A stretch of 64,000 nucleotides of DNA from Allodiplogaster sudhausi (Eukaryota; Nematoda; Chromadorea; Rhabditida; Diplogasteridae). Location: NCBI GenBank assembly GCA_945643635.1, contig CALZFC010000017.1, positions 1,702,501-1,766,500 of the forward strand, in the 5' to 3' direction. How positions within the stretch are numbered: the stretch's first letter is position 1; every line of letters starts with the position of its first letter. Below are positions 5,512 to 63,992 of this stretch, piece after piece. A program made the translations under genes and the position numbers. The notes beneath the pieces were generated by a model. The model was not told the origin of the DNA, did no database searches, and saw only the letters and a list, made by a program, of their open reading frames with translations.

Positions 5512-7795
5512 CTCTGTAAGGATCAAGCAGCCTTCCATTGGGGCCTGCCCCGGAGGAAAGTATCGGATTTTGATAACCAAATTTTAATGGGGGGTACCCA
5601 TACGTACAATAAAGAAAATTTGGTGGTCAATTTTGTTATAAAATTTTTTTCATTGACTGGGCATGCAATAGTATGTAAAATGTTTACGACCATATAACTT
5701 TCTGTAAACTTAATATTTTTCAATTTTATTTTTTTATTTGTTGTATATTCAGAAAGCGCACAAAAAAGTAATTGATGACCTTCTGAAAAAGTTTAATTAT
5801 TAACAAGTTTTATGCATTTTTAATTTTCAAAAATCGGTTTTTTGAGCACATCGTCTATTTTACGGTCCGGTTCTAGGCTGGAGAATAGCTGAGATGAAAG
5901 AGGAGAAAAAATGACACAAGATGTGGATTTATGAAGAAAATCGAAGGATATATATGTTTTCGAATTTTGACCTGAACCTGGTGCACTTGCACTTTCGCTG
6001 AGTGAGATAAACTAGTGTAACTTTTTTTAATGTCTTGCTTTTTAAACAATTTTTATCTCATCGAATTGGCCATTAAATTCTCTCCTATAAAAGTATAGAA
6101 CCAATCTGCCTAATGTTACCTTGAGCTTATAAATAAAATTTTCTCTTTTTTGAACAAAAATTAAATGGGTAATAACAACTGAGAACCAAATTTATGGGCC
6201 TTTGAGATATCCGGCTGAACCAATCAAACATATTATTAGATAGAGCGAAGAATTCTGTATACCATACCCTTGTTTCATGAGATTTCAAGGATATATATTT
6301 ACTTTTTACGAACAATTTCGGAAAATTTCCAGCATCGATCCAGCCGATAGATCAAGTCGAAAAATGAAAGGTGCTTGTTTATGTCACAAATAATGTTATA
6401 TGGTGTTTTTTGATGAGCGAAAAGAATAATTTCATCGAAAACCGATTTTTGAAAAAGAAAAATTCCAAAAAGTGGTTAAAAAATAAAACTTTTCAGAAAA
6501 ATAAGCATGGATTTTTTTGTTTTAAGTTCTCCCCGAAGCTTTGTATGTTTCTCTCTCTCTCTTTATCTTCAGAAACATATGCAATCAATACCATATTGCG
6601 CGCGTCCAAGCGATAAGTAGAAGTTGTAGCCAGACAACTCCTGAAAGATGTCTTTGAAAGCTCTATGCATGTGTTTAGAAGATATCATATTTGCTATTCA
6701 GTCCTCTACAAAAAGGCCTCTGTCATCCATCTGCCGTTACGGTGGAACTCAGAAAATGCAATTTAGCCCGGGGCTTGACTGAAATGATATGGGATTGGCA
6801 ACACATAAAGAAATTAAAATAAGTGAAAAAAAATTTTTTCGAAAAAAAAAATCAAACGAATAAAGAGTAAATGAAACGGTTTTCGATGAAATTATTCTTT
6901 TCGCTCATAAAAAACACCATATAACATGATTTGTGACATAAACATGCACTTTTCATTTTTCGACTTGATCTATCGGCTGGATCGATGCTGGAAATTTTCC
7001 GAAATTGTTCGTAAAAAGTAAATATATATCCTTGAAATCTCATGAAACAAGGGTATGGTATACAGAATTCTTCGCTCTATCTAATAATATGTTTGATTGG
7101 TTCAGCCGGATATCTCAAAGGCCCATAAATTTGGTTCTCAGTTGTTATTACCCATTTAATTTTTGTTCAAAAAAGAGAAAATTTTATTTATAAGCTCAAG
7201 GTAACATTAGGCAGATTGGTTCCATACTTTTCTAGGAGAGAATTTAATGGCCAATTCGATGAGATAAAAATTGTTTAAAAAGCAAGACATTAAAAAAAGT
7301 TACACTAGTTTATCTCACTCAGCGAAAGTGCAAGTGCACCAGGTTCAGGTCAAAATTCGAAAACATATATATCCTTCGATTTTCTTCATAAATCCATATC
7401 TTGTGTCATTTTTTCTCCTCTTTCATCTCAGCTATTCTCCAGCCTGGAACCGGACCGTAAAATAGACGATGTGCTCAAAAAACCGATTTTTGAAAATTAA
7501 AAATGCATAAAACTTGTTAATAATGAAACTTTTTCAGAAAGTCATCAATTACTTTTTTGTGCGCTTTCTGAATATACAACGAATAAAAAAAGAAAATTGA
7601 AAAATATTAAGTTTACAGAAAGTTATATGGTCGTAAACATTTTACATACTATTGCATGCCCAGTCAATGAAAAAATTTTTATAACAAAATTGACCACCAA
7701 ATTTTCTTTATAGTACGTATGGGTACCCCATTAAAATTTGGTTATCAAAATCCGAAACTTTCCCCCGGGGCAGGGCCACCTTGGCCCTAACAGAG
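5512..7795. mobile_element. Large foldback (inverted-repeat) element
   Basis: Two arms of about 0.93 kb (5512-6444 and 6877-7795) are nearly perfect reverse complements. A translated stretch of 62 residues at 6127-6315 on the minus strand recurs identically at 7005-7193 on the plus strand. They are separated by a loop of about 430 bases. The outer ends share CTCTGT...AGG but I could not settle a target-site duplication. No transposase is visible, so it is a non-autonomous foldback element or a recent palindromic duplication. The right end lies about 70 bases before the first recognisable lipase exon. Confidence 0.85.
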
Positions 7796-44557: not shown

Positions 44558-47377
44558 TCATAGCTTGTTGGTGCAGGAATGCGGGAACAAAGAATCCGTC
44601 GGGTCTGCTCTAGAATCCCGCGGCATACTCTTTTGTAAAGTCATAGTTAAATCAGCAGCCACGACGCCTACTTCGCGGCCCAACTGGATGCCCGAGAAGC
44701 CTTGCATCTCCCAGTCCTTGGCTTCCTGAGAGAGAGAGAGAGAGCAAAAGCAGGAAAAGAGAGAGGGGGGATACTAAGAAAAGTCTATAGTCTTTCTCTT
44801 GAAATTCTGTGTCGAAATAAAAGAAGGAATGCAACAAGTACAAAGACAGAAACAAAATCAGATGATTAAAATTTTATCAAATTTAGCATACATTTCGGCG
44901 CAACTAAATATTTTACCTCAATGCTATCAACAGCAACGGAATGTTCGCGTTTAGTCATCATTCTAATTTGATCACGGAAACACTTGACGAACATTATAAC
45001 AACAACAGGATCCGCGATCGGGAAAATGATAGTAAGCCTCATGAAAAGCGCGCCAGTTCTGCTGAGGTCGATATCTAAGCGATTTCATAATTAATGCATA
45101 ATTAAAAAGTAAACTCATCAAACCTGTCAAGGGAGCCAAAACGATTATAGCGAGCGGGATGTACGTGAAAAGAGTAGGGATAAGCGTCTGAAACGACCGA
45201 AATTCCGTAACAAAAATTCAATTGTTTATATTTTAGGGCATATATATGTATGTATATTTATGATTGTGAGGGCCTAAGTATTTCTTTTGCTCAAGTTTAT
45301 TATTACCATTCGTAGAGTGTTGTCTATGTTTAGTGCACATCGTATCGCGCACGTTTTTAATTGATGTTGAAATCCAAGTTCAGTTTCCATTCATTCAAAT
45401 GCTGTTTGATGGGTCTCAAATATACAATTACGGTAGAGCACGAATGATGACTATTTCGAATGTCTTACCGAATGCAAAGTCAGTAGTGTTTGTACTATGC
45501 TTCAATTGTACGGCAGCTAGCAGCTCTTCACCTTCCCTCTTTTATTTATGTCGTCACAGCATTCCAAGACCAACACATAACAACAACTCGAGTGGTCTTC
45601 AGCATCCAGTGATAGTTAGTAGTTGTCCAGTCACTATATTAATATCTCGTGGCGCTGTCTGCCACTCGTGAATGATGACAGCAGAGGCAAGTCAAGAATT
45701 TTTTTTACGATATCATCGACACTTGTGCGTAGTAAACCAGAAACTGCCGACTACTTGACACTTGAAATTCTCTGAGACCACATTTGCGTCAGCATTATAT
45801 TTACAAGGAAGAATTTATCGCTAGCAAAGAGACATTTATCATTTTTTTAAAATTTAAGAGCAAGTGTCGAAAAGAAATTTATCATAATCTTGATCTTATA
45901 TATAAAAATAGAAAAGAAAAACAAGTGAAACCTGCACGAGAAGAGCCTTTAGTAATTGTCGATGGAGTTCGTTTTCGGCGACATTTTCACGGTCCCAAAG
46001 GCAATGCGAATTCGCATGGTACAGAATGCGATGACAACTACAGTACCTGAGAGAAGTTAGAGTGAAGCTTAAAAAAAGAAAAAGACATTAAAAGAAGTGG
46101 AAATTGTCGAACAATCAATTTTAAACAAAAATTTTTTTTGTTGGATAGACATACATAAAATCAGCGACGTCCAGCCCAATATCGCTGTAATGTGTTTAAT
46201 ATTCCACACGAAACCTCCTTCACCGTCCGGAATCTAAAAAAAGATTCAAAGCTGCTTTGATTGCGGAAAAGATCCAAATTGAAATTTACTTCAGAATTTT
46301 AATAATTTTAAAGACCCGTAAGCACCTTGAGAATGAGCATAAAATATGAGTGTCGGTGACCATCAAAATTGTAAAATTCAAGCAGAGGAAGCTTGGTGAT
46401 GAGCTATGAAAAATAACATTTTATGTTTTTATAATTCTAAAAATTATAAGAGCATTGTTTTGCGACTGACAATACACACACAAATAAACACACACAGTTA
46501 TTTATGTAAGTACATACAGATCATTTTTTATATTATGTAAATATTTTCAACTGTACCGTATCCGAGAAATCTGTTGGACGACAGCACAAATGTGCAACTA
46601 GCATGCAGGCCGTGTTGAAGGCGAGCGTAATGGAGGCGACCAGAACAGAGACGTGCCAGATTCGCCATTGGCTGGCCCAGTTGAGGCATGCAGGCCTAAA
46701 CAAAATTGCTTCAATCCATAGTCCATAGGTAATTTTCAGCCATTTACCTAACCAAATAGTAGCCCACTTTTCGGGAATACATTTTAAAACATAAGTTAAA
46801 ATTTTCAACATCAGCAATGAAAATCACAGTTTTGAACACTTTTAAGCTCGACTCCGTTTGCGTACTGCAAGATAGCGTTGTATCGGTAGACGAAATGGAA
46901 GGCGAGCAGCACAAAAGTCTGGTAGAACAAAAGGAGGAAGGTCGAGCACGCGACGATGCCGCCAGAGAACGGAAGCATCGTCGCCAGTTCGGAGAAGAAG
47001 ACGTAGACTCCGGCCGTAGAATGGACGACCTGTCGTGGCGAGGCGGTCTAATTTACGGACCGTGAATTTAATTTTGTATGCACATACACATATGCATGCA
47101 TTTTTTAAATGCACAAACACGTAGTTTTGTTTAAAAAACATAATGAAAACTATTTTTTTTTTACAAAAAGTTTGATAAAAGTAACCGGTCTGATGATAGC
47201 GTGATCCAGCGCAATGACAATGTTGGAGATGGAGAATGCGAGCAGCAGCAGCCGGTAGTTGCCGATGCTCGCGCGCGCCAACGGCTGGAGAGTCAGGAAG
47301 GCGAGCAGACCATTCGTGCAGGTTGCTAGCCCCGTCCCGGAGAGCGTGAGCACAAGCTCTAGTGTACGCTGCGCCAT
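44558..47377 (-). pseudogene. Str/Srj-type seven-helix chemoreceptor with a one-base frameshift
   Basis: Minus-strand exons: 47377-47186, 47029-46866, 46695-46557, 46403-46326, 46233-46155, 46046-45932, 45187-45124, 45074-44917, 44725-44558. Features: TCTNGLLAFLTLQPLARASI, GNYRLLLLAFSISNI; FVYRYNAIL at the end of helix 3 (the family's DRY equivalent); FVWNIKHITAILGW; IPTLFTYIPLAIIVLAPL (helix 6); IIFPIADPVVVIMFVKCFRD (helix 7, D-P). These are diagnostic of nematode Str/Srj receptors. Exon 6 is 115 bases where phases on both sides need 116. Its first half reads TVKMSPKTNS and its second half, one frame over, RQLLKALLVQ (the QLf.aL..Q motif), so one base is missing near 45963. Everything else is intact: a very recent pseudogene, an allele, or an assembly error. 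Confidence 0.85.
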
Positions 47378-48078
47378 TGGTGGGAGCCTGTTTAAGTTCC
47401 CAAAAACTCAAGCTTGAATTTGCTCGTTCTTGCCTTGCAAGATGATGTGAGAGCATGAGATTTAGAAAGACGCGAATGCAATTGCCAGGAAAATGTATTA
47501 CAGCTGTGTTGCTTGCTTCCTTAGTATGACTTATACATGGAAAATAAGGAGCATTCGTCAGACAATTGCGCAGGCTTTTAGATATGAAGAGGATGTGAAT
47601 ATGTTTTAATTTTCATATCGAAGATCCGTCCTGCTCAAGATGAGTGTATAACGTAACTCGTTGCGTCGTATATTCGCTTCATGTGAAACTTGTGAAAAGG
47701 TACGATTGTCAAGTGTATGCGTAAATTGACAAGAATATCAAATTATCTTCCTTTTGGACATCTCACCTAAGGAAGAAAAATAGCGAGACAATTCAACTCT
47801 TCCGTTTCATTATCAGACGTAATTGCTGAGAAGTCTACTGAATAAAATATAGCACATGATCGTCATTTCCGCGACGCTAACTAATACTTTCCGTTTTAAA
47901 GGTCATCGCTGCCGGATTTCTTCTAGACGACCACTTGCGAGTCACAACATAAATGAAATATAAAGTGAAAGCTGTTCTTTTCATGGAAGCTTTCGACAGT
48001 GTATGCATAAACAAAACAAGCTTCACGAAATTATTGAAAATGCAACCTCTGATTTCTCTTGCTTTCTGAACCTTTCTG
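47378..48078. repeat. Dispersed repeat copy 1, partner at 58440-59130
   Basis: Long patches match the region 58440-59130 in the same orientation: TATAACNTAACTCGTTGCGTCGTATA; ATTCAACTCTTCC, then ACTGAAT.AAATAT.GCACATGAT; TCTAGACGACCAC. No coding signal is evident. Together the two copies frame the 48.08-58.36 kb segment. (Words longer than 20 bases are consensus with gaps.). Confidence 0.65.
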
Positions 48079-50601: not shown

Positions 50602-51165
50602 ATGCCGCTCGCACGTGATATTCTGCATCCGGACCCGGTTAAGGAGCGCGTGCGCTGCAAGCTCAAGCGCCTCGCCCAGCACCCGAACTCCTTCTTCATG
50701 GACGTCAAGTGCCCCGGCTGCTACAAGATCACCACCGTCTTCAGGTTCATAGCCAGCCTTTTTATATGGAAAGCTTCCATTTGTTGGGGTCTTTGATTTG
50801 AAACGGCAAGACCTTGTTCCTTTTGAATAACATCACTCTGAAGCGGGAATGGAATTGAATAATTGCTGCTATATTCTTTCTCGCTGAATACGGAATCCTC
50901 TTTTCTATTTCATCATTGACCGTTAAATACAAAAGTTTTCCTGTTTAAAATTCTTTTCCTGTTGCAGAGCAGCTTAACCAAACTAGTTTCCTTTGATTAT
51001 TTTTAGTGTGTTTCAAAGTCCTGCAGTTTTAGACATTGTTTAAAAAGAACAAATTACCTCCGTGAATGTAATTTGTTTTATTTATTGTTAAATTGTTGAT
51101 TCCTTTTACAGGCATTCCCATGGCCATCTGCTCAGGATCCAATGCAAGGGACTTCCCGCGCAAGG
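50602..51165 (+). pseudogene. rps-27: Ribosomal protein eS27 (RPS27) partial copy, second exon degenerate
   Basis: Exon 1 (50602-50744) encodes [20 protein letters not shown], then [20 protein letters not shown] and YKITTVF, nearly the standard eS27 N-terminal half with its first zinc-ribbon CPGC. A good donor follows. The next acceptor (51111) opens an exon that should give SHA..V.C.GC, but the matching codons (GCCATCTGCTCAGGATCC, ICSGS) are one frame off and the second CxxC has lost a cysteine. No trace of the C-terminal L.EGCSFR block exists before the next gene. A functional copy must lie elsewhere. It has an intron, so it is a duplicated fragment and not a retrocopy. Confidence 0.75.
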
Positions 51166-51962
51166 TTCATTTAGATTCAGTTCTTGTTGTACTAAAGAAC
51201 AGCAGGGGTTTCTTGTTGACGTGCATCTAATGTGTTTTGCCTTTGCTAGCTATAAATAATGCACTCTTAACGTTCAACAAAGTCGGTTTTTGCCCGGAGG
51301 TACTGTGATTAAGCCTTATCAAGCTATTATTATATTACTCTAGATTACAAAGTGATAAAGTAGAAATGAAAGTAATGCTAATAGAAAAGAATAACAAGTG
51401 CGTAAGTTGACATTGCTTTGCAGTGGATCATGACTGAGATGGCGACGTACGCCTATTCGAATGTCATCGTGCCCCTCTACGAGACTCTCGGCCCCGACGC
51501 ATGCGCCTTCCCTGCCCACCAGCCTCCTTCTCCTCACTCGCACATCGTCGCCTCCGCTCTTCTCACTCTCTCCGGCTTCATCTACATCTTCGCCGTTATC
51601 CACGCTGCTTGGCTAGTTCTTGTATGTGTTTACTTAGTCACATACATCATGTGACGACTTTTTTAAAAATAGTCGGCGACTCAGATTATCTTCTTTATAT
51701 CTTTTCAAAATTCATATCTTTTCGTGCATTTTTCCACCACTTGTCCTTGTTTCATGAAAATAGACAATGAACGTACTGAGTTCAGCCGCACGATTAATCT
51801 CCCTCGAGGACACAGACAAGCGTCTCTGACATGTCCAGGACATTTTATTGTCCAAGACATTTCAGAGACAATTTGTAGACATGTCAGGGACAAATTTTCC
51901 AAAATGAAAGCGAAGGGAGGAGGCCAAACTTTCATATTTTTAAATAGTTTACTCCTTTTTTA

Positions 51963-53193
51963 ATGTCAAATGTATTTAATTTTCGTCTGAAAATGTCGAG
52001 TTACGTCTTGAACTTCGGGAGCCAACAACGGCGTCCGAATCTGCTGTATGCCCGAAGAAACTTCATTGAGCTGTGCCTGCCGAATGAGGATCTCTTTGTT
52101 CGACGACATCGATTTAGCCCCATGGATGTCATTTTTCTGAAACGGCTTCTCTCTCCCTGGCTCAACCAGTACATGATCAAGAACTGGACAATTTCGCCGT
52201 CTCATCAAGTTAACTACCAGACATGTTATGAATGTGTTTAGTATGAAGAATGCATGAATCAGGTGCTCATTGTTCTCCGATATCTGCTCAGCAACGCTCC
52301 ATTGATTGTTCTCGCCGACGTCCTTGGATGCTGCGAATCTACCGTCAGGAACTGCCTCTGGCGCCTCATAACAGGAATTGAGGCGATTTCGCCTGAATCG
52401 ATTCGGTTTCCAGTCGACTCCATCGCTTACTGCCGACAATCAGCCGAAGCGTTCTCAAAACGCGCCAATTTACAAGTCAAATGTTTTTAAATGAAAGAAA
52501 ATAAGCTATTTTTTTGCAAATTATTTAAAAAGATCTCTTTACAGAATTAAATGAGTATTAAAAATTGTTTTAAAATGAGTCAAATTATGAAATTCATAAA
52601 AATTTATTTGAGATGTGATTGGCATCGTGGATGGGACCTTGATTCCCATCGCCTCACCCACTCTCGCGCCATGGCAGTTTCGATGCCGCAAGGAGTACAC
52701 CGCTATTAATGCCCTTCTTGTTGTCGATGCTTATGGTAGAATTATTTATGCCAACTGTACGTGGCCAGGATCATGCCACGATAGCTTCATTTTAAGATTT
52801 TCGGAACTAGGAAGTGCGATCTCTCAGGGCACAATACCTCCCGGATATGTGATCTTGGGAGACAAGGGGTTTCCCAATGGTGCTCATATTGTCACCCCTC
52901 TCCGCAGACCAAACACCCCTCAAGAATGTGACTTTAACAACGTGCACAAGCGAGTTCGTGTCCTCGTAGAGCAGGCAATTGGAGTGTTGAAGGCGCGGTT
53001 CCGCATTCTCTCTACGAGAATTCGGCTTACTCCAACCATGGCCTCTCGTTCCATTCATGCCTGCTGTGTCCTCCATAACATCCTTATTGATCGTGTAACC
53101 GGAGGCTTTCCGATCGGAAATGTGATTCTCGGAAGAATGCCCCACCCTCCTGTGGGAATTGACCCGCGTCAGCACATGATTAACTACATTTAG
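51963..53193 (+). CDS. PIF/Harbinger transposase (DDE_Tnp_4, HARBI1-like)
   Basis: Three blocks. 51963-52210: MSSYVLNFGSQQRRPNLLYA, then RHRFSPMDVIFLKRLLSPWL. 52262-52477: helix-turn-helix LADVLGCCESTVRNCLWRLI. 52613-53193: catalytic domain. The DDE residues are present: IVDGT (Asp codon 52630), LGDKGFP (Asp 52861) and VRVLVEQAIGVLKARF (Glu 52969), and the C-terminal H.ACCVLHN motif characteristic of HARBI1-like enzymes. Block 1 to 2 joins in phase. Block 2 to 3 does not with the visible donor (52478) and acceptor (52612), which are one base out, so the protein may be inactive or an alternative site is used. Confidence 0.85.
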
Positions 53194-53410
53194 ATATATT
53201 TCCTTTGAGTTGTACACTAACAAACACTCCCAATGTTATCCAACTTTGTTCCAACAATAAACAGTTCCAACAACAAACGGTTAACAAAATTTCTATTCTC
53301 ACAAACTGAATACAAATATTCTATTTTTATTCTCGTTAACTCTGAATAAATGATAGTCTATTATGCATCTTTAGAAAGAATGACTATGCTAAAGAGCACC
53401 ATTCTTCTAA

Positions 53411-54737
53411 CAAGGGAACCATCTGAAGATAAGTTGGAGAATTTTGATCTCACCTATCCAGATCGATAGTCCAAGTCGAGAAATGATGATAACCATTTTT
53501 ACTTTTTCCTTAATGGCCTCTGGCGATTTTATATTGATTTTTAAATTTTGCATAAAATCGCGGATTTAGTGACCTTGCCATTGTCAATGTGTCACTTAAG
53601 CAATTAAACATGGCCTGCGCGGCGCAGTGGGATGCGCGCTCGCCTGCAGTTTTGAGCGTCGCAGGTTCGAACCCCATTCGGTTCAAATATTTTGCTGCAG
53701 TTTTGCAAGTTCAAATTTGAAGAAGTACATAAAGAGAAAATTTTTTCAATGAGAGGAGAGTGCATATACACTTTAAATTGGTGTTAAAAAATTTTTACTT
53801 GTGTATAAGGGCATTCCGTGTTGGATGGTGTTCAATTCGCCCTTGCTTGCGAATCCACTATCAACCTATTCAGTGGGGCCTACCCCAAAAAGTCGAGGAA
53901 AAAAATTTCCCCGAAAATCACCACAGGGGGGTAATTTGGTGCGAGGATTGCGAATATCTAGTTTATTTTTAATTCTGAAGTCATTTAAAAAAAAGTTACG
54001 GTAAGTAGGTATGCGGTATAAATTCCAAAAAAGAAGTACGGCGTAAACAACAAGAAGTATGTAGACTATCTGTCCGAGTTCCTGTTGAGGAAACAGTTCG
54101 GAAAACAGAAAGGAGTCTTCTTCCACAAAAGGAGATCAAAACAAATTTCTATATTTTTTTTAATGACTTCAGAATTAAAAATAAACTAGATATTCGCAAT
54201 CCTCGCACCAAATTACCCCCTCTGGTGATTTTCGGGGAAAGTTTTTTCCTCGACTTTTTTGGGGTAGGCCCCACCGAATAGGTTGATAGTGGATTCGCAA
54301 GCAAGGGCGAATTGAACACCATCCAACACGGAATGCCCTTATACACAAGTAAAAAATTTTTTAACACCAATTTAAAGTGTATATGCACTCTCCTCTCATT
54401 GAAAAAATTTTCTCTTTATGTACTTCTTCAAATTTGAACTTGCAAAACTGCAGCAAAATATTTGAACCGAATGGGGTTCGAACCTGCGACGCTCAAAACT
54501 GCAGGCGAGCGCGCATCCCACTGCGCCGCGCAGGCCATGTTTAATTGCTTAAGTGACACATTGACAATGGCAAGGTCACTAAATCCGCGATTTTATGCAA
54601 AATTTAAAAATCAATATAAAATCGCCAGAGGCCATTAAGGAAAAAGTAAAAATGGTTATCATCATTTCTCGACTTGGACTATCGATCTGGATAGGTGAGA
54701 TCAAAATTCTCCAACTTATCTTCAGACGGTTCCCTTG
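53411..54737. mobile_element. Foldback element with TAA duplications, nested in the Harbinger transposon
   Basis: Arms 53411-53994 and 54154-54737 are near-perfect reverse complements (584 bases each). Ends CAAGGGAACC...GGTTCCCTTG are flanked by TAA on both sides (53408-53410, 54738-54740), the TWA target of Harbinger-type MITEs. Each arm carries a tRNA-like A box and B box. The loop (about 160 bases) contains an open stretch reading NNKKYVDYLSEFLLRKQFGK that faintly recalls the C-terminal helix of ISXO2/Merlin-type transposases. As a MITE it would be mobilised in trans. Confidence 0.85.
53612..53690 (+). promoter_or_regulatory. tRNA-like pol III A and B boxes in the foldback arm
   Basis: GGCGCAGTGGGATGCGC (53621) resembles the D-arm/A box of initiator-type tRNAs and GGTTCGAACCC (53664-53674) is an excellent B box, about 33 bases apart as in real tRNAs. 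The acceptor arms do not pair, so it is tRNA-derived and not a tRNA gene. An inverted copy lies at about 54457-54537 on the minus strand, so the two could be transcribed toward each other through the loop. Confidence 0.6.
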
Positions 54738-54778
54738 TAAGTAAACTGATAAAAAGGGGGAAATTGATCTAAAAACAT

Positions 54779-56607
54779 CTAGGCAAGGGTAGAGCCAGAC
54801 ACACTGGGTTCCAACGCTGGGTCCATTCCATCAGCGAATATGGCGGGGACGTACTGCGTACCATTCTCCTTCGCAGTACGCAGAAGGAAGTTCTCGTTGT
54901 GTGTGCGTGGAGACTGGGGAGCATCAACAAGTTCGTACGTCGTACTGCGGTCGAAGAAGCTCGTCGCCGTCTCCATCATCTCGACTACCTTCTGACCAAT
55001 AGCAGACATGGTCTGCATGGCAGACTTCATTGCGGCGAATGCCTCGATCTCCGTCTTAATGAAAATATTGTATAAAGAATGTACTTAATGAAAAGGAAAT
55101 ATTTAAAGAAAGTGTACCGTATGTACGAAAGTGTACCGTATAAGTTACGGTATAGTGTACCGTATAGTAAACCAAATATGATCATGTAAGATAAAAAAGA
55201 ATCGGATAACTCAACTCATTTAAGAAAGATTAAACAATAACCTGTACTAGTTCAAGCTGCTTACGGCGGAGAAGAGCATCTGAAGCTGCTCGACTCGTGC
55301 CAGGTGAACGATACTCCTCCTCAAATGAAAATGCGTACTTTTTATGGTCAATAATAATAAAAGAAAATAAATTAAAATCGATAGTAATTGAAAATTCGTG
55401 GAATATGTTTCAAAAGAACCTGTCCTGCCAGGAATCTTTCGTTCCTAGCGAGAACTCGGGGGGCGCGGAAGCTCGATTCTTCCCCTTCCTCTCCAAAAGA
55501 TGGCTTCCTTGCAGGGAGTCGCGGGGCGCGGAAGCTCGATGCTGCCTGCTGCTCTCCAACAGATGACTTCCTAGCAGGGAGTCGCGGGCCGCGGACGCTT
55601 GATGCCTCATCCGCGTCATCCTCGTCTAAGACGGATGGCGGCGACCTCTTCTTAAATTCGTACTTCAAAGTGATATCATTTTTAACACATTAAAAATTAA
55701 AAGTAAATACGGGAATGACATGCTCCCAATGCCCGAAAGAAAACATTTAAACTTAAAAAAAATATTCCCAATGTGCAAAAGTTTTACATAAAGTTACAAA
55801 CAAATTCTAACCCTCCCAACTTGTGTTTCGGCGCCATCTTTGATTCCTGCGAACGCCGGGGTTTCGCCGTAGTAATCTACCATCATCCTTGAAGTGGCAT
55901 CATCATCCAGAGCTTCCATCTCGTCCAAATCTTCTTCTTCATCGAAGTCAACGCCTCCGCCCGTCGTTCCCGCATACCTGTAACACAAAATAGGGCTTAT
56001 GTGAAGAAAACATCAAACAAAGTTGTTGCGGAATGCCAATGATAAATAGATTTCGCTGCAAGATATGCAGATTCAATACATTTATTCGAATTGTACTTTA
56101 ATATTGGAAGAAAACAGCTAGATTGCAAGACGGATTTAAGCTCCGCTTCATTTTTTAAATTTAAAAGCTAGCCATTAAAAGCACTCAACACAGCTCTGCA
56201 ACAAGAATGTTTCAACTGCAAATGATATGCAACCTTGCCCGCCTCGCTGCTGCTGCTCTGGCATCCGCCGTGGCCCTGCTCAGCATCTTTTTCAACTGAG
56301 CGTCAGTTACCTCGCGACTGAAATTTAACTAAATAATTCACAAATCGTGCAAATCAAATTAAAGGTGCATAGATAAAACAAGAAAAAGCTAAATGCATTA
56401 GAGATTTTGCCCGTTTTAGGCACATATAATCTTTACAAAACACTTACTCAAATTTGATCTGGGCGTAGAGTCGAATATCCGCCCAGGCCTGTCTGCAGTT
56501 GCTTCAGGCTGCCGAGTCCGATTGTTCTCAACCAGTATATGTTTCCTCTTCATAATCTCCTGTAGCAGCAGCTTCTTCTGCTCGCCAGTTAAGTGGGCGG
56601 AACTCAT
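54779..56607 (-). CDS. Myb/SANT-like DNA-binding protein of the Harbinger element
   Basis: Harbinger elements encode a Myb-like partner that binds transposon ends and imports the transposase. Minus-strand exons: 56607-56448, 56317-56234, 55977-55812, 55662-55420, about 55336-55243, about 55054-54779. MSSAHLTGEQKKLLLQEIMK (first helix), CRQAWADIRLYAQIKF (third-helix region with the conserved Trp) and REVTDAQLKKMLSRATADAR (the QLKK block) are typical. The first helix and the Trp block lie in different frames of exon 1, so a small indel near 56500 may have inactivated it. The middle has three repeats of SS.R.PRLPARK (55450-55620); acidic FDEEEDLDEMEAL and a C-terminal helical tail follow. Opposite strand to the transposase. 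Confidence 0.7.
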
Positions 56608-57730
56608 CTATAAGAATAATGAAAAACACTCGATAATAATTCACAGAATTATAGTAAATGAAAGTAATAAAAAATGCAGTAAAAGAAATATCCTTTTTGA
56701 AAGCCGCTTCTCGCGCCAAAAGCGGTTGCTACAGTAAGCATAAACAGTACGATTGCGCGTTCAATAAGACAAAGTCATAACTTTTGTCTCGGAGACACGA
56801 AATGACATTCAGCGTGTTTGTTTCGCCTCTCTTCAAATTGCACACTCTCTCGTCTCCAGAGGATGTCCTGGACATTGTCCCGGACATTCTCGATGTCCAG
56901 GACAAAATATTTTTCCAAAAGTGTCTGAGACATTTCAAAGACACACGAGTGTCATATAGAAGACCCGTGTATTAATATAGGACTATTCCATAGTGTCCGG
57001 GACATTTGTCTGCCACCTCAGAAAATGTCTTGGACATGTCTTAGACATTTGTCCATGTCCTCGAGTAAGATTAATCGTGCGGCAGGATTCGCTACGGCAA
57101 GGATCAGCGTTGGCTGGCCGGCATCGTGGATAAGGCGTGGGCGACGTTGAAGGAAACGCGGCCGGTCGGTGCCTTGCTGTCGCTGTACTCGTTGTTCTCT
57201 GGCTTCGACTTGGAAATGGAGAAGCAGAAGCTGGCTGTCTTCTCTGACAAGACCGGCATTCAAATCGACCTCCCGACTCTGCCCGACTGGCTCGTGTCTG
57301 CTGTCGACTTCTTCAATCGAATGGTCAACGGCGCCCTCTCACTGCTTGATTCGACCGTTGAATCGACTGGAAAGGTTTATTCTATCTCTTTAGTTTCTGT
57401 CTCACTTCCTATAGGTTTTCGCTTTTTCTTCCTCTCTCTCTCTCGTAGTCTCTCTCTCTCTCTCCCCTCTCTCTCTCCATTTTTTGTTTGTTTATCGAGA
57501 AGATCTACTTTAGTTGCTTCACTGGACTCGAGTTGCCGCCCCCGATGGAAGAGGAGGACGTGAGACTAGAGGACTCACTCAGCGATGGGTCCTCCACCCA
57601 ACAGCCACCTCCCGTGCCCGAATATGTCGGAGGGGCCCTCAGACTTCCCAACAGCTTCCATGATGAAGATGAAGTCGACAGCGTTGAAGTTGAAGAAGAA
57701 GAGAAGAAGAAGAAGAATGACGTCACCTAA

Positions 57731-58439: not shown

Positions 58440-59130
58440 CGCCAAACTGCAGATTAGGAAGAGTAAACGTGTAGATTTCAGTTGAGTTTCATGATCCTTT
58501 AATGTGAATAATACTGGGAAAATAAGGCGAGAATTGCGCAGGCTTGTCAATCAGGAGCAATTTTAATATATGTATTTACATACATACATATGTATGTGTT
58601 CATGTACATATTTATTTCCATCACGAACAACAGTAGTGCTCAAAACTTGTATATAACTCGTTGCGTCGTATAAAGACTTTATGTGAAACTTTCTTGTGTG
58701 GAACAAAATATTGTACTAGCCAGGGAATTCAACTCTTCCATGTCATTAACAGATGAAAAACCTGACAGGTTTACTGAATGAAATATGGCACATGATCATC
58801 ATTGTCGCATTCCAAACTAATATTTCCATATGACTGATCTTCTTCTATTGTGAATATCATTTGGTCACTAACAATAATATGCTGGCTAGACTTCTATCAG
58901 AAATCTCATGCGTTGTCGAAGAAGAAAGATGCTGGCAGATTCCATGCTCGCTCGTCTAGACGACCACCTGCAGGTCACATTCACAGGATAAATGAAGCAT
59001 CAAGTGACAAGTGTTCTTTTGACGGCAACTTTTAACGTCCAATAAACGCAACAAGTCTCCCTGAATTATAAAGAGCTGCAATATATAATCTCTCTTGGTT
59101 TCTGAATCTCTTTGTATGCTTGTCTGAAAA
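58440..59130. repeat. Dispersed repeat copy 2, partner at 47378-48078
   Basis: Same orientation as copy 1 with patchy identity, notably AACTCGTTGCGTCGTATA, ATTCAACTCTTCC and CTCGTCTAGACGACCACCTG. It contains an ACATACATATGTATGT microsatellite at 58578-58598 absent from copy 1. Confidence 0.65.
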
Positions 59131-60024: not shown

Positions 60025-60697
60025 ATGTATATGTAAATGTAGTTGAGTAGGAGAAAAAAGTTTTTGAGATCTCATATCAAAATTTGTATCCTCAGGGATG
60101 GTGACGATGTCAACTGCATTATTCACCTCTTTTTGTCTCCTTTGTTATGTCTGGATTCCCTGTTCTTTGCCACAAAGTTCTAGAGATCTCATTGTTGTTT
60201 GCCGCACTTTATATTTTCATTCTTGAGCTTTGATTGGCATCCAATTTTGTACCGCAATACATCTCGCTTCAGTTTGAAGGTAGCTGTGGTCTACTCTATA
60301 AGATTTCTCCACTTTATTTCTTTCTATCCAATTCATATTTTCTCATGATATCTCAAGGATTTTCTTAATAACTTTCCTGAGTACTTCCAAGTTAATGTAA
60401 TAGCAAACCATATTTAACGCTGATTAAAGACAATATACTGTTTGTCACTATGGGCCAAAACATAATTTTTTCTTATTTTAACGGACCTGTTCAGATGTCC
60501 GGTCGATGCTGATAGAGACTTCTTCACTTCTCAAAAGTGTAGATCTATAACAGCGTAATCGATTTTTAAATCGCCTCCTTAAAGCAATGGATCCATTTGA
60601 CATTATGACGCACATTGCATTGGGTTAGTAGAAATGGTCCCCACACAAGCTTCAAAAATAAAAATAAAATTAATACTATATGCATATTATATACATA
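60025..60697. other. AT-rich intergenic stretch
   Basis: No coding signal, no repeat recognised. Confidence 0.5.
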
Positions 60698-61254
60698 CAG
60701 TCCCGCTCAACATTGTTGGGTTCATTATTAATAGTATTAATAGTATTAATATAAATAATACAAACTGGAATAGCGCGCAGAATACGCATTTTGGTGGCAT
60801 TTCGCGAACAAGTTTACCTACTTCGACAATGGAGATTACGACTGTGAAGACCGTTTTCAAAAATATGCTGAAATGGCTCAGATCTCATAATATTGCATTT
60901 AATTTGGCCGTGTTTGGGTTCCAAACGGGCTGGCTTTAACTCCTGGACTACAAAGTGCAAAATAAAGTGAAATTTTCAGAGCACTTCTTACCTTTTTTGA
61001 GTTTCTTGCTTTATTTATTTTGAGTTTCTTATTTTGTTTATGTATAAACGACTAAAAAAAAATACAAAAAAATTTATTGCGGGCAAAAATATGTTCTCAA
61101 AAGGTACCGAACCGAGACCTCGAGATTGCCGTTCAAAGCTTACCAATACACTACAGACGATACAAACTGCCCTGATGATACCCTTCTTTGGACAGCATCA
61201 ATTGCCTCACAAAGGAAACTCCGATTATGAACACGTTGGCTCATTCTTTAGTGG

Positions 61255-61292
<38 letters not shown>

Positions 61293-61530
61293 TGTCAGGA
61301 GGGAATGCGAGAGAACGAGAAAGAGGGAGAGAGGGAGACAGAGAAAGAGAGACCGGTGGAGCGAGATATAGAGAGCGGGAGAGAGAGAATGAGATAGATA
61401 GAGAGAGCGAGAGAGAGAGAGGTGTTGTTAGCTGACAATGAGAAAAAATCGTTGGTCTAACGACATACCGTAGCTTCAGCCTTGAAACGGTGACGCAGAG
61501 TAGATGTAGTCGACGCTGCACCTTCTTTCG

Positions 61531-61569
<39 letters not shown>

Positions 61570-62129
61570 CCCACTAAAGTAGGAAACAGAGAGTGTTCAG
61601 AATCGACGTTTCCTTTGTGAGGCAATCGACGCTGTCCAAAGAAAGGTATCATCAAATCTGCTTGTACCGTCTGTAGAGTATTGGTAAGTCTTTGAACGGC
61701 AGTCTCGAGGTCTCGGTTCGTTACCCTTTTGAGAACAGATTTTTGCAAGCACGAAATTTTTTTTTGCTTTTTTCGTCGTTAATACATAAACAAAATGAGA
61801 AACTCAAACTAAATAAAACAAGAAATTCAAGAAAGGTAAGAAGTGCTCTGAAAATTTCACGTTATTTTGCACTTTGTAGTCCAGGAGTTGAAGCCAGCCC
61901 GTTTGGAACCCAAGCACAGCCAATTTAAATGCAATATTATGAGATCTCAGCCATTTCAGCATATTTTTGAAAACGGTCTTCACAGTCGTAATCTCCATGG
62001 TCGAAATAGGTAAACTCCTACTCGAAATGGCACGAAAATGCGTATTCAGCGCGCTATTCCAGTTTGTATTATTTATATTAATACTATTAATACTATTAAT
62101 ACCGGACCCAACAATGTTGAGCGGGACTG
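60698..62129. mobile_element. Foldback element with Tc1/mariner-like ends and TA duplication
   Basis: Ends CAGTCCCGCTCAACATTGTT on the left and the exact inverse on the right, each flanked by TA (60696-60697, 62130-62131), as in Tc1/mariner elements. Arms of about 570 bases (60698-61260, 61560-62129) are inverted copies with moderate divergence. The centre holds GA (61258-61300) and CT (61530-61566) tracts that extend the pairing. No transposase is seen. It lies 130 bases before the first exon of the second chemoreceptor. Confidence 0.85.
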
Positions 62130-62260
62130 TACATATGTTCATTGTATTAATTTTTTAAGGTTTGATATATGTACAACTACTCATAAATTCTGCTTCAGTT
62201 TTGATGTGTAGCTTATTAAATATGTAGATACATGAAATTACTGTATTCAACTTGCATATT

Positions 62261-63992
62261 ATGTTATTATCTTCATTTATTTTAGTTTCCGCGCTATGCA
62301 CAAACTTCTTGCTAATCTACCTAATTCTTGCGCGTCCTCATCTGCATTTTGGCGCCTACCGCTATTTACTTTTAATACTGTCACTATACAACACAGTTTA
62401 CTCCATTGCTCATTTCGTCGACGATCCGGTACTTCTTTTGCAATTATATATGCATAGTGTAGAGAAACGTTTCTTAATTCAATAAATATTAAGTTTAAAT
62501 AAATATTTTGAAATAAAACAGCGAACACATAGAATGTGCACAAAGAGACTTGAATTACAAGAAATTACATATGTGATTTTTAAGATAGCCTTAGTTTACA
62601 ATGACGCATTAATCGCTGTGTCCACCGGCTACTTCAATAGCCCCGAGAGTGTCTGCGCTTTCTCTGCAATGTATTCTGGCGAATATTATCTTCTTGCTGT
62701 AAATTTTCTGTATCGCTACATCGCCATGGTGAGGTTAGTGCGCAACAGAAAGGGAGGTCTTTTCTCTTCTATAGATATGATGACTCATCAATAAGCCTAT
62801 TTTTAAGAGGCCTAGAAGAAGGGATGAAAACTTTATAAATGTGTAACTATAATTAACATGAATGAAAATTTTTATAAATGTGTAACTATAATAAATAATG
62901 TTGAGGCCGCAAAAGATTGCGCTCTTCCGCCGGCCGCCCATGATTCTTCTTCTAGTCTTCATCTACATTGTCCAGTTCACGACGTGGTTCACGAGCATCT
63001 GCTACATCTGGGAGTTTGACGACATCTTCTACGCCACGCACTACGAGCTCCTTCGAACGTTCCCGCATGAAGGAAAGCGCGCGATTGGCGGGATGTACTG
63101 GGTCTGTCTTATTTTACAACTAGTCTAAAAAAGGCATTTTCTTTTCTCTTATTTTACAAGACAGTTTTTCTTATGGTTAGTTTGAACAATGGCTTCAAAT
63201 GGTTGTTAACAGTACTTGTTGGAAATTTTTCCACCTCTTAATTTTTCCTAGTTTATTAAACTCCTCTCTTTGACAGTCGTTTCTATAGACACATTATCGC
63301 TCACGTTAAGGATGTCTAGAAAAGATAAATGAAAAATATAGTATCTCCAGAATCCGATCGATGGCTCCTTTCGATGGCGCACCGGCCTCGGCGCATTCTT
63401 CGTCCTTTCAATCATGGCCAGCTGCATTTCGGTGAGCATCGTCTTGGCGACGCTCATTTACAGGCAACTTAATCGAGGTTAAGATGAGCTTTTTGTTTTT
63501 CCCGTTATGATTAAATTAACATTGATTAAAATCTGAATAAAATATCAAACAAAAAGGGGAGAAAGGTAATAAACTATATTGATAATGTAAAAAAAAATAC
63601 CGCGATCAGAATATGTAGGACGTGGATAAAAAAGTTAAATAGTGAAAGAAGGAATTGTGGGAGCGAGAGAGTTTGAAAAAACAAAGGAATAGAGACAGTC
63701 TAAAAGGAAAGAGTTCTAAATTGGTAAGACGCCAAGTTCATTAATTAGACTTTCTTCTTCACTTTTTACAGACAATTCACGCCAGAGTACGGTCGCCTCA
63801 CGAAAGACGTTGGCAATGCAGCGCAACTTTTTCTATACACTCATGCTTCAAGTTAGATTCAGTTTCAAATTGTGAGGAAAGTGCGTGACTTCAAAAGTAA
63901 TTCCCTGGTTATAAAATCATAGCTGATCATTCCGTTCTTCGTCGTCTACTTGCCAGTTGCTATTCTAGTTGTGCTCCCGGTCATTGTTCCAG
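62261..63992 (+). CDS. Str/Srj-type seven-helix chemoreceptor, 3' end beyond the window
   Basis: Exons: 62261-62428, 62585-62733, 62906-63101, 63351-63477, 63772-63851, 63923-63992, all in phase. Order: TNFLLIYLILARPHLHFGAY (helix 1 and the G-Y-R motif), NTVYSIAHFVDDP, GYFNSPESVCAFSAMYSGEY, FLYRYIAMVR (end of helix 3), RRPPMILLLVFIYIVQFTTW (helix 4), FRWRTGLGAFFVLSIMASCI (helix 5), SRKTLAMQRNFFYTLMLQ then LIIPFFVVYLPVAILVVLPV (helix 6). Intron positions match the minus-strand receptor at 44558-47377 except that its exons 3 and 4 are one here. Start at the in-frame ATG 62261 gives a short N-terminus; a 5' exon could have been displaced by the foldback element. Probably acts in sensory cilia. 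Confidence 0.8.

Follow-up and report, generated by a model that had tools for sequence, protein, structure and literature searches.

Classical PIF/Harbinger elements carry TWA target duplications (PMC4482050), and the NuwaI group of the PHIS (PIF/Harbinger-ISL2EU-Spy) transposons is defined by CWG duplications (Han et al., 2015; PMC4482050). According to that survey, NuwaI elements have terminal inverted repeats (TIRs) of 12-61 bases that usually begin with GGG, a second open reading frame (ORF) of the Myb/SANT type and a mean length near 4.5 kb, and among the 836 genomes covered they were present in 16 animal genomes, namely those of 12 bony fish, a beetle, a crustacean, a mollusc and an anthozoan, none of which is a nematode. 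Here, we describe a PHIS-type element in a stretch of 64,000 nucleotides (the window) from the diplogastrid nematode Allodiplogaster sudhausi (contig CALZFC010000017.1, positions 1,702,501 to 1,766,500, forward strand; all coordinates count from the first letter of the window). With modest confidence we read the locus as a CWG-target PHIS transposon that entered a lineage-restricted gene at a CAG close to where its coding sequence begins.

Two other described systems are relevant for comparison. Introner families, as described in a recent study (PNAS 2022; PMC9860276), comprise 5 or more copies and have median lengths of 30-654 nucleotides. Like them, the present element is a DNA element with TIRs and an AG-containing target duplication, located within a coding stretch or at its border; unlike them, it is a single element of 5.3 kb that carries genes for transposition and has weak splice sites. 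In Pristionchus pacificus about a third of the genes are orphans, and a chimeric origin has been proposed as one of the ways in which they arise (PMC6643871). The gene probably split by the element resembles that setting in being a gene without homologues beside recycled coding fragments, and a Pristionchus-like synthetase fragment occurs in this genome as well.

The CAG-flanked transposon

51786..57082, forward strand: PHIS (PIF/Harbinger-type) DNA transposon, 5297 bases
51783..51785: CAG target-site duplication, left copy
57083..57085: CAG target-site duplication, right copy
51786..51846, forward strand: left TIR, perfect in its 14 outermost bases and 85% identical over all 61
57022..57082, reverse strand: right TIR
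51993..53193, forward strand: transposase gene, 338 residues, with exons 51993-52208, 52263-52482 and 52613-53193 (introns and start predicted)
53400..54748: nested foldback element, arms of ~589 nucleotides, 98.5% identical, between the transposon's two genes
54779..56607, reverse strand: second transposon gene, exons partly worked out, first part Myb/SANT-like, apparent frame change near 56490

The inverted ends of the element (CCGCACGATTAATC / GATTAATCGTGCGG) agree at 14 of 14 terminal positions, and the repeats extend to 61 bases at 85% identity. Exact 14-base end matches within the window are restricted to the element's own two termini, and matches with up to three mismatches number 5 in total versus 4.74 by chance. 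The element itself is beyond chance. A search for its ends in viral contigs gave 0 matches. The nested foldback interrupts neither of the two genes, which are convergent; inspection of its flanks by eye revealed no clear target duplication, and without this insert the transposon measures about 3.95 kb.

The ORF at 52612-53190 matches the Pfam family DDE_Tnp_4 (PF13359) with an E of 1.6e-34. When 5.8 billion proteins were searched with a query that carried X at the in-frame TAG codon 52239, 16 relatives at E <= 0.001 were obtained from 2294 candidates, and six of these 16 bear the name HARBI1. Residues D7, D57 and E120 of the ORF, which we take to be the catalytic DDE triad, are invariant in all eight aligned sequences, i.e. 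that of the window and those of 7 of the 16 relatives. After excision of two predicted introns of 54 and 130 nucleotides the transposase reading is stop-free over 338 residues and aligns with the relative P0002 at 34% identity across 293 columns, the first join being ungapped and the second carrying a gap of two residues. The TAG at 52239 was considered as a premature stop and hence a lesion of the transposase, and this was rejected, as it lies inside the 54-nucleotide GT-AG stretch 52209-52262, the excision of which restores the alignment to P0002. Splice sites were scored with a model trained on 25 script-inferred introns (58-363 nucleotides) from 35 exon pairs, 10 of which gave none. For the second transposase intron, donor 52483 (0.4 bits) preserves the frame and donor 52476 (0.8 bits) breaks it; given this weak donor and the slightly better, frame-breaking one, the transposase can only be called likely intact.

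In the second gene, the first part resembles Myb_DNA-bind_5 (PF13873) with an E of 0.0022 and 18.3 bits, which is below the cut-off of 21.7, the query being composed of hand-joined pieces of two frames plus a later exon. Since the match needed pieces from two frames, this gene may carry a frame-shifting lesion. Its minus-strand frames at 54779-55693 hold a 63-nucleotide tandem repeat of 2.6 copies and gave no Pfam match.

Judged by its sequence, the element is a member of the PIF/Harbinger superfamily (PHIS). It has the transposase family and the two-gene layout of the classical elements but duplicates CAG instead of TWA. With NuwaI it shares a target duplication that fits CWG (CAG, in one copy) and a DDE transposase, accompanied by a second gene whose resemblance to Myb/SANT is weak and below the cut-off; its TIRs fall within the published range and its size without the nested insert lies near the published mean. 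It departs from NuwaI in that its ends start with CCG rather than the usual GGG, a feature not treated as defining, and from the hosts listed in the survey in that it resides in a nematode. We would call the element NuwaI-like by its target duplication, as seen in one copy, and do not place it firmly in the group. Searches of one open-access library brought up no NuwaI-type element from a nematode, which is no proof of absence.

The reading frame on both sides of the element

51754..51785, forward strand: putative coding stretch left of the element, in-frame ATG, MKIDNERTEF + AG
57086..57374, forward strand: presumed continuation of this coding exon right of the element, up to the donor AAG/GTTTATT at 57375
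57503..57730, forward strand: probable last exon with an acidic C-terminus, beginning at 57500 or 57503 (six acceptors are possible) and closing with the stop 57728-57730

To the left of the element the frame reads ...ATA GAC AAT GAA CGT ACT GAG TTC AG and to the right G ATT CGC TAC GGC AAG. If the element and one CAG are removed, the junction codon is AGG and the frame is uninterrupted, so that the predicted frame of an empty allele with a single CAG is MKIDNERTEFRIRYGK. From the ATG at 51754, which the initial annotation did not mention, the reading starts MKIDNERTEFRIRYGKDQRW... and, at the empty site, remains open to 57374 (321 nucleotides, 107 codons), giving MKIDNERTEF/RIRYGKDQRW..., i.e. 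MKIDNERTEF R IRYGKDQRWLAGIVDKAWATLKETRPVGALLSLYSLFSGFDLEMEKQKLAVFSDKTG..., with the insertion at codon 11. The donor at 57375 scores 5.5 bits, and six of the nine listed acceptors continue into the same acidic last reading and its stop. Read from the same ATG, the occupied allele encodes 69 residues, the last 59 of which are specified by the element.

Codon use, assessed with a table of 1835 codons from one tandem gene array of the same window, reaches +36.8 bits over 57102-57374 of the right part, the best of the six frames. The GC content by codon position is 0.55/0.40/0.75 in the right part, 0.51/0.37/0.55 in the training codons (n=1835) and 0.57/0.38/0.87 in a ribosomal protein S27 (RPS27) exon upstream, a low value at the second position being common to all three. 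The 11 codons that span the junction score +4.3 bits; the median for exons is 3.1, and stop-free intron and intergenic windows reach 4.6 at their 97th percentile. Left of the junction at the empty site, the frame proposed initially is open for 83 of 85 bases and the other two frames for 22 and 6. The left flank is open for 32 nucleotides in the frame of the exon that follows; among the intron tails of the window this holds for only three of 21, so that the likelihood ratio for coding is about 7 (this control set consists of the 25 introns minus one with a score of -1.3 and three without a frame anchor). Codon statistics and the open flank hence speak for a coding exon that was split rather than for the end of an intron, though not decisively.

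From our point of view, these observations are best explained if a cut-and-paste CWG-target PHIS transposon inserted at the CAG near the coding start of a lineage-restricted nematode gene and if repair of the staggered cut duplicated this CAG. The 32 bases on the left and the 289 bases on the right would once have formed a single exon from ATG 51754, and the occupied allele would now yield at best a 69-residue stub that ends within the element. The gene is most likely broken by the element, and the insertion is probably young.

What can be seen directly is the element with its ends, the CAG duplication, the frame restored at the empty site and the transposase reading with the presumed catalytic triad. 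Two statements of the initial annotation are borne out, namely that a Harbinger element with a CAG duplication occupies 51783..57085 (a span that includes both CAGs) and that removal of its 5297 bases plus one CAG yields AGG and an open frame into the last exon. The further claim that it was caught inside a coding exon agrees with the best reading at a lower strength, as no homologue of the gene was found and three other models compete. To speak of direct evidence for a recent disabling insertion was too strong: recency is supported by the 14/14 ends, the exact duplication and the unbroken transposase reading, which give no date for the insertion, and the second transposon gene shows an apparent frame change.

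Several observations weigh against the explanation we favour. A single copy of the element was seen. The joined host protein had no homologue at E <= 1 among 1042 candidates, and a longer host query returned 3 proteins at E <= 10 of 4501 candidates, all of which are acyl-CoA synthetases or carry that Pfam domain; to be detected in these searches, a relative must have exact 5-residue words in common with the query and a length of about 144-457 residues (joined protein) or 231-735 residues (longer query). The next-best frame of the right part over 57102-57374, which is antisense, still scores +26.9 bits, which means that GC content accounts for part of the coding signal, and the 11 junction codons reach +2.6 bits in a second frame as well. 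Among 5000 first-order Markov sequences matched in length and composition to the right part, 5.5% stay open in the given frame and 52% in any of the six frames; ORF length by itself is therefore not significant and was dropped as proof of coding after this control. The pyrimidine content of the left flank (0.40) is below the intron mean of 0.53, yet within the intron range (minimum 0.20), and the putative start at ATG 51754 comes with no promoter or trans-splice evidence, none of which was sought. Lastly, the best acceptor scored in the empty site is TTCAG/G with 6.1 bits versus 4.3 for the AG at 51762-51763, which is what an exon starting at the CAG would lead one to expect. Frame closure by itself is weaker evidence than the element.

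Given that Pristionchus is represented in the protein database, with one protein of P. mayeri among the matches, the host gene would be lineage-restricted, fast-evolving, or beyond the limits that length and shared words set to the search. A Pfam search with the host exons gave a best E of 0.14, below the cut-off, and one with the joined host protein of 182 residues gave none; PDB sequence searches as well as Rfam and tRNA searches likewise gave none.

Competing gene models and upstream gene fragments

Four gene models can be drawn for the left side, namely (i) the exon of the initial annotation, with the phase-1 donor 51626 (1.5 bits) and the acceptor AATAG before 51764 (4.3 bits; sum 5.8); (ii) an intron that ends at the CAG, with donor 51651 (0.1 bits) and the empty-site TTCAG/G (sum 6.2); (iii) an intron 51622-57101, with 4.7 bits for the donor and 1.7 bits for the acceptor (sum 6.4); or (iv) a start at ATG 51754 without an upstream exon. 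The sums of (i)-(iii) are within one bit of each other, and the coding evidence favours (i) or (iv). Models (i)-(iii) all need an upstream exon at 51424-51621, and two gene fragments, one before this exon and one within it, bear on the choice:

50602..50744, forward strand: RPS27 N-terminal exon, 47 codons + 2 bases (PF01667, E 8.3e-08, on 50602-50742)
51424..51510, forward strand: acyl-CoA synthetase (long-chain) exon fragment, 29 codons, candidate link to the split gene

The upstream exon opens with the 29 synthetase codons. This fragment is 77% identical over 35 residues (E 2.3e-13) to P0017, a protein labelled Pristionchus mayeri, and it is through the fragment that P0017 and P0018 match the longer host query. 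As worked out by hand, the frame of the RPS27 exon reaches a stop after the obvious splices and is incompatible with the synthetase frame. The stretch 50602-51510 appears as a mosaic of duplicated gene pieces adjoining the split gene. The upstream exons that the initial annotation had joined to the gene contain fragments of two unrelated genes, RPS27 and acyl-CoA synthetase. As the upstream exon of models (i)-(iii) belongs to the mosaic and is a poor foundation, we prefer model (iv).

The alternative that survives best, although we regard it as doubtful, is that the insertion is intronic and not exonic, so that the gene may be unharmed. The intron would either extend over 51622-57101 in phase 0, with the exon resuming at GATCAGCG, or start at 51651 and end at the CAG, in which case the right CAG would still serve as 3' splice site; under the intron models NERTEFRIRYGK would not occur in the protein. 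For the longer intron, CTT/GTATGTG at 51622 is the best of the nearby donors scored and is in phase with the AG at 57100-57101, as had been stated initially; for the other, TTCAG/G is in phase with donor 51651. Both sums exceed that of model (i), and a competing AG at most 23 nucleotides before the acceptor, found in 7 of the 24 introns used for this count, is not rare. However, the acceptor at 57101 is weak and before the insertion would have stood 16 bases behind the stronger TTCAG, the five codons 57087-57101 are coding-like (+2.9 bits), and the extension 51622-51651 is intron-like (-3.0 bits, GC 0.33). The right CAG has an acceptor score of only 0.9 bits after the insertion, the left flank is open in a way that few intron tails are, and both variants require the synthetase-fragment exon as part of the gene. 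An element tolerated as an intron via the AG at 57101, as the initial annotation had also considered, has a site that is present and in phase, but it needs weak splice sites and stands as a rival only.

It is improbable that there is no functional gene at all and that the element landed among gene fragments, in DNA that has decayed or never coded, with open frames arising by chance. The empty homologue searches, the hand-derived frame incompatibility of the RPS27 and synthetase fragments at the obvious splice sites and the 52% of Markov sequences with at least one of six frames open over this length would fit such a view, whereas the codon-position GC of the right part resembles that of known coding sequence in the window, its open frame has +36.8 bits, and it is followed by the donor at 57375 (5.5 bits) and an in-frame last exon.

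Lastly, an exonic element that is removed as a new intron, with TGA/GTTCAG at 51780 as donor and the right CAG as acceptor, is very improbable: this join alters the protein least among 11 in-frame joins (GT/GC donors 51755-51899 combined with AG acceptors 56900-57139), leaving an in-frame mRNA minus two codons, and published introners recruit splice sites from the target duplication or the neighbouring exon (PMC9860276), but its donor scores -2.9 and its acceptor 0.9 bits, and a gene-bearing intron of 5.3 kb is far beyond the 25 inferred introns. Intronization of the element is possible, not likely, by the splice-site sequences, and we give very little credence indeed to the more specific proposal that the PHIS transposon is tolerated as a freshly made intron, with the duplicated CAG as 3' splice site, an exonic GT donor and two codons lost.

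Other features of the window and implications

Elsewhere in the window, two large foldbacks are found at 5591-7729 (arms of 821 nucleotides, 98%) and 60691-62136 (arms of 380 nucleotides, 92%), together with a dispersed repeat of about 450-500 bases at 47606-48073 and 58611-59109, the copies of which are 71-78% identical in three pieces. At 11000-38800, about five multi-exon genes that are paralogous to each other form a tandem array; four Pfam queries from it gave nothing above the cut-off, and judged by eye its genes may encode ionotropic-receptor-like membrane proteins. Matches to 7TM_GPCR_Str are located at 47156-47326 on the reverse strand (E 5.5e-05) and at 62291-62458 on the forward strand (E 3.4e-10); Str-type chemoreceptors are, to our knowledge, nematode-specific, so that the two matches by themselves point to a nematode, and the one 35-residue synthetase match makes kinship with Pristionchus probable.

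If the preferred reading, an exonic insertion near ATG 51754, is right, the locus would provide a well-preserved CWG-target PHIS insertion in a nematode, a lineage missing from the 2015 NuwaI species list, with a prediction for the empty site that is exact to the base. As the target CAG, now present twice, also matches the consensus for the end of an intron, one could test here, at one named locus, whether elements of this kind can turn into introns. Should the tolerated-intron reading be true, an intron would here be caught at the first step of its origin in an animal, in the form of a large element that bears genes; otherwise, the locus would be an ordinary case of gene disruption by a transposon, the gene being young and poorly conserved.

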